Assembly (NCBI RefSeq): GCF_002848265.1
Contig: NZ_CP025422.1
Coordinates: 620,001-684,000 of the forward strand
Length of the DNA: 64,000 bases
Direction of reading: 5' to 3'
Source: Zhihengliuella sp. ISTPL4
Lineage (GTDB): Bacteria; Actinomycetota; Actinomycetes; Actinomycetales; Microbacteriaceae
Shown here: positions 31,317-59,209 of the stretch, one piece after another
Layout of the letters: each line of letters starts with the position of its first letter
How positions within the stretch are numbered: the stretch's first letter is position 1
Translations under genes and position numbers: made by a program
The notes under the pieces: model-generated
Databases searched by the model: none
Seen by the model: only the letters and a program-made list of their open reading frames with translations
What the model was told of the DNA's origin: nothing

Positions 31317-31382
31317 GCTCGGTTCCGCCGGGTTACTGAGCTCGGTTCCGATGGGTTACTGAGCTCGGTTCCGATGGGTTAC
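31314..31382. repeat. Tandem array of 23-bp repeats (3 units)
   Basis: Three contiguous 23-bp units, 31314-31336, 31337-31359 and 31360-31382, each beginning TGAGCTCGGTTCC and ending GGGTTAC; units 2 and 3 are identical and unit 1 differs at two bases (CC for AT). The first TGA is the stop codon of the ABC ATPase. The array runs directly into a hairpin repeat at 31380. Confidence 0.9.
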
Positions 31383-31398
31383 TGAGCTCGTCGAAGTA
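31380..31398. repeat. Dispersed hairpin repeat, copy A
   Basis: Stem TACT / AGTA around the invariant 11-nt loop class GAGCNNGTCGA (here GAGCTCGTCGA, 31384-31394). Lies between the tandem array and the rpmE promoter. Same loop and a covarying stem in five other copies in this window. Confidence 0.75.
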
Positions 31399-36352: not shown

Positions 36353-36363
36353 GCTCCCCATCT

Positions 36364-36389
36364 GGGTCGCTGAGCTTGTCGAAGCGCCC
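36364..36389. repeat. Dispersed hairpin repeat, copy B
   Basis: Inner stem CGCT / AGCG closes loop GAGCTTGTCGA (36372-36382); GGG and CCC extend it past a single unpaired T. Lies 11 bases after the oxygenase stop, directly before the terminator. Confidence 0.75.
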
Positions 36390-38685: not shown

Positions 38686-39363
38686 ATGCTCTTCCGTGCC
38701 GTCTTCCTGCCGTTCACCGCGACCAGCCGTCGAGACCTGGTCGAGCGGCTGGTGCAGCTCGTGGGCGGGCTCTTCCTCTACGGCGTCGCCCTCGGCTTCA
38801 TGGTGCGCGGCGGCATCGGCGTCGCGCCCTGGGACGTGCTCTCGCTGGGCGTCGCGCGCTGGACGGGACTCGGGTACGGAGTCGTCACGGTGCTGATCTC
38901 GATCGTCGTCCTGCTGCTGTGGATCCCGCTCCGTCAACGGGTGGGTCTCGGCACCCTGCTCAACGCGTTGCTCATCGGACCGTTCGCCGATCTCACGCTC
39001 CTCGTGCTGCCGGCACCGGGGTCGGTCTGGGCGGGGGCGCCCATGTTCGTTTTCGGACTCGTGCTGCTGGCGTTCGCCACCGGTCTCTACATCGCGGCGG
39101 ACTTCGGCCCTGGACCGCGCGACGGACTCATGACGGGGCTCGTCCGGGTGACCCGGTGGCCGGTCTGGTTGGCGCGGACGGTCATCGAGGGCTCCGTGCT
39201 GCTCGTCGGGTTCCTTCTCGGCGGTCCGGTGGGCGTCGGCACCGTCCTGTTCGCGTTCGGCGTCGGCCCGCTGATCGGCTGGTTCCTCCCGCGGATCGAG
39301 CGCCGCCGCCGTGCCCGTTCGCAGCGCCTCGCCGTCCTGCCGAGCGCGCCCCTGGGTCCCTGA
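38686..39363 (+). CDS. YczE/YyaS/YitT-family membrane protein
   Basis: A 225-residue protein with five or six membrane helices; GFMVRGGIGVAPWDVLSLG near residue 40 and GPGPRDGLMTGL near 142 are the repeated glycine-rich motifs of the YczE group. Function unknown, possibly small-molecule transport. It is divergent from, and probably controlled by, the MocR regulator. ATG 38686 follows GGAGAG. The TGA stop lies inside dispersed hairpin copy C, so the C-terminus may have been reset by insertion. Confidence 0.85.
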   Translation: MLFRAVFLPFTATSRRDLVERLVQLVGGLFLYGVALGFMVRGGIGVAPWDVLSLGVARWTGLGYGVVTVLISIVVLLLWIPLRQRVGLGTLLNALLIGPFADLTLLVLPAPGSVWAGAPMFVFGLVLLAFATGLYIAADFGPGPRDGLMTGLVRVTRWPVWLARTVIEGSVLLVGFLLGGPVGVGTVLFAFGVGPLIGWFLPRIERRRRARSQRLAVLPSAPLGP

Positions 39364-39379
39364 GCCTGTCGAAGGGCTC
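39354..39379. repeat. Dispersed hairpin repeat, copy C
   Basis: Stem CCCT / AGGG with loop GAGCCTGTCGA (39362-39372), extended by GGG pairing with CTC. Its internal TGA is the stop codon of the yczE-like gene. Confidence 0.78.
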
Positions 39380-58721: not shown

Positions 58722-59115
58722 GGGCGAATGGGTCGACTGGACGGTCGCGTGGCGGGCAACCGCACCGAGGAACGTCCGGGCTCCACAGGGCAGGGCGGTG
58801 GGTAACACCCACCCGGAGCGATCCGCGAGAAAGTGCCACAGAGAGCAGACCGCCCGTTCGGTCCCTGAGCTTGTCGAAGGGCCCGAAGGGGTAAGGGTGA
58901 AAGGGTGGTGTAAGAGACCACCGGGGGCCGTGGTGACACGGCCCGCCAGGTAAACCTCGCCCGGAGCAAGGTCAGACAGAGGATGATGACGCGGCCCGCC
59001 GAGTCCTCGGGTAGACCGCTGGAGCGGCACGGCAACGTGTCGCCGAGAGAGATGGCCGTCGAAGGGGCGAAGAACCCCGGAACAGAACCCGGCGTACAGG
59101 TCGGCCCATTCGCCT
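58722..59115 (+). ncRNA. rnpB: RNase P RNA (type A)
   Basis: The catalytic RNA that trims tRNA precursors. Ends pair as P1: GGCGAATGGG (58723-58732) with CCCATTCGCC (59105-59114). Conserved core segments GAGGAACGTCCGGGCTC, ACAGAGAGCAGACCGCC, GTAAGGGTGAAAGGGTGG and the 3' GGAACAGAACCCGG are all present. TAGACT at 58712-58717 is the likely -10. The P12 position (58857-58887) is filled by a copy of the dispersed hairpin repeat. Confidence 0.97.
58857..58887 (+). repeat. Dispersed hairpin repeat, copy D, inside rnpB
   Basis: Inner stem CCCT / AGGG closes loop GAGCTTGTCGA (58867-58877); after one T/C mismatch the outer stem TTCGG / CCGAA continues, giving nine base pairs. It takes the place of helix P12 of RNase P RNA. 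Confidence 0.85.
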
Positions 59116-59156: not shown

Positions 59157-59164
59157 CCCGCATC

Positions 59165-59209
59165 GGGTCCCTGAGCCCGTCGAAGGGCCCTGAGCCGGTC
59201 GAAGGGTCA
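59165..59209. repeat. Dispersed hairpin repeat, tandem copies E1 and E2
   Basis: Two abutting hairpins: CCCT/AGGG with loop GAGCCCGTCGA (59173-59183) and CCCT/AGGG with loop GAGCCGGTCGA (59192-59202). The second runs into the TGA stop codon of ppgK on the minus strand. Confidence 0.78.

Follow-up and report, generated by a model that had tools for sequence, protein, structure and literature searches.

A REP-like hairpin repeat at the tip of RNase P RNA helix P12 and its probable recurrent capture in Microbacterium

Introduction

The RNase P RNA gene (rnpB) in a 64,000-nucleotide stretch of Zhihengliuella sp. ISTPL4 (NZ_CP025422.1, positions 620,001 to 684,000; hereafter the window) raises the question of how a hairpin that is dispersed through a genome also comes to be a helix of an essential ribozyme. 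A sequence-only reading of the window had placed such a hairpin inside helix P12 of rnpB, and had proposed that the repeat was inserted into, or captured as, this peripheral helix. Our analysis of the window, of its genome and of rnpB in relatives from the genus Microbacterium confirms the observation and partly supports the interpretation. With a probability of roughly three in four, we propose that a REP-like hairpin enters the loops of P12 and P19 and persists there under a filter acting at the level of the RNA, with many of the observed changes of state being separate captures.

Results

The gene and the hairpin at its P12 are defined by the following features, all on the plus strand.

58729..59112, +, rnpB, bacterial type A RNase P RNA (RF00010, 274 bits, whole model 1-367)
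58852..58892, +, P12 with the repeat as its tip (RNA fold and model placement)
58863..58881, +, captured repeat core CCCT-GAGCTTGTCGA-AGGG (19-mer match; the identical core is dispersed genome-wide)
58858..58862, +, site of the repeat's 5′ tag, TCGGT here against TGGGT (column counts in 76 copies)

The covariance model score of 274 bits, against a gathering score of 100, identifies the gene as a type A RNase P RNA. The only bases that RF00010 cannot place are those of a hairpin tip between ACAGAGAGCAGACCGCC and GTAAGGGTGAAA, where the sequence reads GTTCGGTCCCTGAGCTTGTCGAAGGGCCCGAAGG. The model itself labels no helices, and we take the hairpin at 58852-58892 to be P12 and the region at 59064-59078 to be P19. 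The P12 RNA folds as a single stem-loop (-22.9 kcal/mol, z -2.14, with 7 of 200 shuffles equally low) through pairing of 58852-58855 with 58889-58892, 58857-58861 with 58883-58887, and 58863-58866 with 58878-58881. The hairpin placed at 58857-58887 by the sequence-only reading was thus found as described, with the extra bases at its tip. Bases 58858-58861, which occupy the position of the tag, pair with the 3′ side of P12. This P12 holds one hairpin unit and no tandem short repeats. Despite the repeat, the remainder of the RNA matches the model end to end, which bears out the proposal that the repeat was captured as a tip with the catalytic core left intact. The complete genome has a single rnpB match, which implies, as far as sequence can indicate, that the ribozyme would stay active with the repeat in place. 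Two RNase P RNA matches were seen in one genome of the family, G285.

Outside rnpB, a search for the degenerate loop GAGCNNGTCGA flanked by 3 bp or more of stem found all five further copies that had been reported for the window, their loops lying at 31384, 36372, 39362, 59173 and 59192.

31375..31398, +, copy with a TACT/AGTA stem and the loop GAGCTCGTCGA
36363..36386, +, copy with a compensated CGCT/AGCG stem and the loop GAGCTTGTCGA
39353..39376, +, copy with a CCCT/AGGG stem and the loop GAGCCTGTCGA
59164..59187, +, copy that follows rnpB after some 50 bases, with the loop GAGCCCGTCGA
59188..59206, +, dispersed copy adjoining the copy at 59164..59187, loop GAGCCGGTCGA

The exact loop GAGCTTGTCGA occurs twice in the window against a mean of 0.00 in shuffles, and the 19-mer with at most three mismatches occurs five times, P12 included, where 0.01 is expected. 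Across the 3.53 Mb genome, the 17-base sequence CCTGAGCNNGTCGAAGG has 53 exact copies, 23 on one strand and 30 on the other, and a reversed control has none; with at most one mismatch there are 71 copies against one for the control. Absence of the loop elsewhere in the genome, which the sequence-only reading had named as fatal to the insertion idea, is therefore not what we see.

Seventy-six copies, the one in P12 included, were read from 37 fetched regions and the window. They define a dispersed unit consisting of a tag, TGGGT, followed by CCCT-GAGCYTGTCGA-AGGG. The five bases 5′ of the stem are a conserved unpaired tag (T in 58, G in 65, G in 69, G in 73 and T in 63 of the 76), and the 3′ flank is weakly C-rich and has no fixed 3′ partner. 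The stem is exactly 4 bp in 61 of the 76 and is mostly CCCT or CGCT with AGGG or AGCG, a compensated change, around the loop GAGCNNGTCGA. The two variable letters of this loop are CT in 43 copies, TT in 13, CC in 9, TC in 7, GT in 2 and CG in 2. TTCGG/CCGAA, which had been described as a part of the dispersed repeat, proved to be peculiar to the P12 copy, as the extension is present there alone among the 76. The copies are many and lie partly in small clusters (L218, L225 and L247), as in REP-like elements. Within one of these, at G000:C1 ~580576-580816 (L218 425-664), seven tandem copies stand about 37 bases apart, mostly with the CGCT/AGCG stem, and this array suggests that local duplication may be another way for the repeat to grow.

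Relatives differ in whether P12 carries the repeat. The motif lies between the P12 flanks in 28 of 366 genomes of the genus and the exact antisense motif in none, both counts being lower bounds, as an exact match of flanks and loop was required. A P12 of this same sequence in all relatives, the other outcome that the sequence-only reading had held against insertion, is thus not found. An rnpB match was obtained for 146 of the 149 genus genomes sampled first; P12 was read in 157 loci, comprising 144 from this sample and 13 further carriers from the search of 366 genomes. Among the 157, 28 carry the motif, L120 has a one-base variant, and the remaining 128 have different hairpins, 10 to 50 bases long and in many cases ending in a GCAA or TTCG-like loop. 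The sole sign of an antisense copy in these loci is a degenerate one, CCCCTCGACAAGGTCAAGGGG, in L178 (G417). A genomic repeat is therefore present in rnpB of some relatives and absent from that of sister species, as is the case for the cyanobacterial STRR.

Comparison of filled and empty alleles locates the point of entry. L180, the nearest sister of the window lineage (L075 and L080), has the empty P12 CCCGCAAGGG. By eye, both ends of CCCGCAAGGG are kept in L080 (CCCG ... AAGGG) around the repeat, which replaces the middle C and so sits within the GCAA tetraloop. L083 shows the same ends and 3′ half as L080 and belongs to another subclade, in which CCCGCAAGGG is again found in L171 and L182; this identity across subclades speaks for sharing by recombination in that part of the tree. 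Elsewhere, the TGGG tag still adjoins the stem in P12 of L062, L068, L074 and L081, which are spread over three distinct places in the tree (L062/L081, L068 and L074). In L086, TGGG stands 8 bases from the stem and was not counted as an intact tag.

Some P12s carry CTCG-type loops (L049, L128, L151, L164, L185, L188, L039 and L121). These were considered as a second repeat family and the idea was rejected, as their pattern, TNCGCTCGTCGNA, is not clearly dispersed: in each of 20 genomes it matches 3 to 12 times, where a control matches 2 to 7 times, and the range is 3 to 12 in the 8 genomes that have such a P12 and 4 to 12 in the 12 that do not. Most CTCG-type tips have Watson-Crick pairs at the positions of the repeat's G.A/A.G mismatches, and L049 is a very close sister of the repeat-bearing L066 and L076. 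The position of L049 beside these two suggests that CTCG-type P12s may be old captures turned into a regular helix.

Trees were used to count how often the P12 state has changed. The main tree was built from the two proteins that flank rnpB, for 153 loci with at least one of them, and its 28 filled rows are 27 carriers and L120. It requires 20 state changes, 15 of them forced by well supported branches, where shuffled labels give a mean of 26.1. Midpoint-rooted parsimony resolves the changes into 19 gains and one loss, and a single gain would cost 62 losses. A second tree of 11 filled loci and 11 empty near neighbours gives 11 changes (5-95% of 200 bootstrap trees, 11-11) and rejects one filled clade (p-AU 8e-74); because the neighbours were chosen after the first tree, it merely confirms the interleaving. 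A tree of the rnpB core without P12 is poorly resolved, with 25 changes over 29 filled rows, 9 of them forced, and 53 of 500 shuffles as low. The P12 state has thus changed many times, through fresh captures, rnpB recombination between species, or both. We infer that many of these changes are separate captures and not the passage of a filled rnpB between species. The 3′ half AGGGCCCGAAGG, however, is common to the filled P12s of L075, L080, L083, L070 and L088, which lie in different subclades of one 29-locus clade, and there a single capture spread by recombination fits better than several captures.

Carriers are also distinguished by the number of repeats in the rest of their genomes. All 28 have other copies (2 to 329, median 50.5), whereas 51 non-carriers have a median of one copy and 24 of them have none (Mann-Whitney p 1.1e-9); the non-carriers were hand-picked from the first sample before copy number was known. 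With correction for kinship and a threshold of 10 copies, 13 independent pairs give 7.9 in agreement against 0.1 in disagreement (median p 0.008). The median p is 0.03 at a threshold of 5 copies and 0.01 at 20, and a threshold of one copy is not significant (0.125). Five genomes, G327, G364, G376, G344 and G366, are rich in copies and have none in P12; counts among such non-carriers, in descending order, are 158, 83, 54, 37 and 32. The existence of such copy-rich non-carriers indicates that copies alone are insufficient for capture.

P12 is not the only helix of the ribozyme with a copy. A second region of the window is empty, and the corresponding P19 is filled in a related clade.

59064..59078, +, P19 region GGGGCGAAGAACCCC, empty in the window, occupied by the hairpin repeat in a related clade (sequence; P19 of 156 relatives)

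In 5 of 156 rnpB genes, P19 ends in the repeat instead of its own terminal loop; all five copies are sense, four with TT and one with TC. An empty P19 reads GGGG-CTCACG-CCCCC or GGGG-TTTCGA-CCCCC, and a filled one GGGG-TTCCTGAGCTTGTCGAAGGAA-CCCCC (L061) or GGGG-TCCCTGAGCTTGTCGAAGGG-CCCCCC (L120). L050, with the empty TTTCGA, and L061, with TTCCTGAGCTTGTCGAAGGAA, are a sister pair. Degenerate copies are present in P19 of L121 and L085, and these two loci and L064 belong to the one clade that holds all P19 carriers. The P19 of L064 is CCCTAAGGG, as though the loop had been lost from a copy, and L085 is a very close species. The stem of the recipient P19, GGGG/CCCC, resembles the GGGT of the tag and the C-rich tail of the repeat, which makes copying through shared runs plausible. 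In the 157 rnpB loci, no part of the gene other than P12 and P19 showed the exact loop motif; an antisense match in L071 lies a few bases past the 3′ end of the gene (counted by hand). In tmRNA, GAGCNNGTCGA was absent from one gene in each of 30 repeat-bearing genomes. One genome, G410, has two strong tmRNA matches (G410:C1:1010441 and G410:C4:12295).

The copies in P12 are uniform in their loop as well as in strand. All 28 of those in the genus have a CTTG loop (TT), in a search that left the two middle letters free, and among the 1817 further copies in these genomes TT is found in 388, a pooled frequency of 21% from which ancestral pools may have differed. At this frequency, 15 independent captures would all have TT with a chance of about 1e-10; if all P12 copies come from one capture, the uniformity needs no explanation. 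Folding energy was rejected as a cause, as TT and CT both give -6.8 kcal/mol in the nearest-neighbour model. CUUG is an unusually stable tetraloop. Because the P19 copies and other taxa also mostly show TT, we lean towards selection as the source of the loop bias.

Beyond the genus, a scan of a genome collection gave 23 P12 hits, 22 of them with TT. Fourteen are in the genus and overlap the 28 carriers; the other nine are five from Nocardioides/Nocardioidaceae, Novosphingobium, Henriciella, a Phycisphaerae and a Bacteroidetes. The loop is the same on stems that differ, GGTC/GACC or GACC/GGTC in Nocardioides/Nocardioidaceae and TCCT/AGGA in Novosphingobium and Henriciella. Of the seven actinobacterial and alphaproteobacterial genomes, six were searched, and the repeat is abundant in them, with 30 to 161 matches where the control has 1 to 15. 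TT was counted by eye in 29 of the first 100 matches listed for one Nocardioides genome and in 12 of 50 listed for one Nocardioidaceae genome. The L089 and L100 genomes have 8 and 9 matches, and the control has 4 and 2 there; L100 (Bacteroidetes), with a CTAG loop, is the one hit without TT. These two distant hits are probably chance resemblance or convergence.

Discussion

Our comparison suggests how a dispersed element may become an arm of RNase P RNA. A REP-like hairpin (TGGGT, CCCT/AGGG, GAGCYTGTCGA) would enter the terminal loop of P12 or, more rarely, that of P19, and become the new tip of the helix, after which its tag and flanks would change until they are paired. The ribozyme core would remain untouched because both helices are peripheral. 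What persists would then be decided by a filter at the RNA level, which would retain nearly only sense copies and, in the genus, those with U at the first variable position of the loop (CUUG, once CUCG). Entry itself could proceed by template switching, in which short GGG...CCC runs common to both would let the repeat be copied into a hairpin loop already present; we think this at least as likely as transposition.

Several other histories would account for parts of this pattern. The uniform loop and strand, the 3′ half AGGGCCCGAAGG that recurs across subclades, and the near-identical sequence flanking P12 in the loci read are all expected if a single ancestral capture was followed by exchange of the filled P12 between species through homologous recombination over its conserved flanks; the CTTG loop and the sense strand would then be inherited and not selected. 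Against this history stand the outer stems, which by eye fall into roughly a dozen or more dissimilar types, the intact TGGG tag in three separate parts of the tree, and the genomic copies present in every carrier. In addition, P19 and the P12s of Nocardioides and Alphaproteobacteria, which have their own stems, cannot descend from such a capture, and yet mostly share its loop. We regard one ancestral capture as rather unlikely. Convergence, in which P12 would resemble the repeat by chance or through a shared stable RNA fold, has in its favour that other P12s also use short loops such as GCAA and TTCG, and that L089 and L100, found in copy-poor genomes, are probably of this kind. As an account of the carriers it is highly improbable, given that nineteen bases match, that carriers are confined to repeat-bearing genomes (28 of 28), and that some P12s also carry the tag.

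The remaining alternative concerns what moves the repeat. The sequence-only reading had taken the repeat for a mobile or replicating small hairpin, and a short tagged hairpin present in dozens to hundreds of copies in many genomes, on both strands and in clusters, does have the look of a REP as described in the available text of PMC3733652. We rejected a RAYT-type transposase as the mover, since PF01797 (Y1) has no match in 80 genomes, among them that of the window and one with 329 copies outside P12, in a search that found matches in 5 of 14 control genomes. An undetected, REP/RAYT-like transposase that targets hairpin loops is rather unlikely in view of this same search and of the by-eye comparison of P12 and P19 sites, in which no target duplication was seen.

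The hairpin in P12 and P19 provides a counted, within-genus case of an essential ribozyme gaining the tip of an arm, with empty and filled alleles in sister species and a known source element. Nature has also recorded here the strand and the loop sequence that last in the RNA, and the origin of peripheral helices becomes directly testable. As a tentative generalization, to which we give somewhat less than even odds, the loops of P12 and P19 may be recurrent docking places for a hairpin of Actinobacteria and Alphaproteobacteria, with the RNA as a sieve that retains only the strand and the CUUG loop which fold well in it, and such repeats may be the main source of the variation seen in the peripheral helices of structured RNAs. 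If so, one element would live under two regimes, spread at the DNA level and fitness at the RNA level. In practical terms, P12 and P19 should be masked in rnpB phylogenies, and genome-wide repeat masking will strike this RNA gene.

Among known small palindromes, Rickettsia palindromic elements are repeats that enter genes and are kept in the product, the familiar cases being protein genes. They are likewise gene-entering palindromes, compared here by name and not by sequence. RPE-4 and RPE-6 are counted among the CGTC-tagged REPs in the available text of Di Nocera et al. 2013 (PMC3733652), which describes the latter as short tagged palindromes without a dedicated transposase, predominant in alphaproteobacteria and found also inside genes. 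That group has, by the same text, the tag CGTC, a stem of 8-9 bp and a loop of 4-5 bases, whereas the present repeat has TGGGT, mostly 4 bp and 11 bases; it has neither a CGTC, TGTC or CCTC tag nor an 8-9 bp stem. The main text of PMC3733652 does not name Microbacterium, Actinobacteria or RNase P. The same source describes GTAG REPs as a tag and an imperfect hairpin in high copy number, moved by RAYT transposases. Our repeat shares the tag-plus-hairpin design and the high copy number, but its tag is TGGGT and none of 80 genomes has the transposase domain PF01797. In the part of PMC12974513 available to us, the P12 tip often expands in archaea and eukaryotes, and the expansions add protein binding sites. 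Growth occurs at the same tip, but these expansions are not described there as copies of a genomic repeat.

The closest precedent is found in cyanobacteria, where, like here, a genomic repeat lies in rnpB of some relatives. This repeat reportedly lengthens P12, was gained recently and independently, and is dispensable for activity in vitro. STRR within the RNase P RNA of heterocystous cyanobacteria were published by Vioque 1997 (Nucleic Acids Res 25:3471), as cited in PMC2858038 and PMC7593598, and P12 is dispensable in cyanobacteria according to the passage of PMC2858038 that cites this work. The sequence-only reading had called a repeat within an essential ribozyme unusual, a claim that these published cases limit. 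In the literature searched, which leaves most subscription papers outside, the letters of our repeat were not found, and for a genomic repeat within rnpB there was nothing beyond citations of Vioque 1997. STRR are short tandem repeats by the title of that paper, whereas the present element is a single tagged hairpin unit with near-fixed orientation and loop, and occurs also in P19. Repeats within rnpB are thus already known from heterocystous cyanobacteria, and the hairpin in P12 and P19 of Microbacterium is a new variant.
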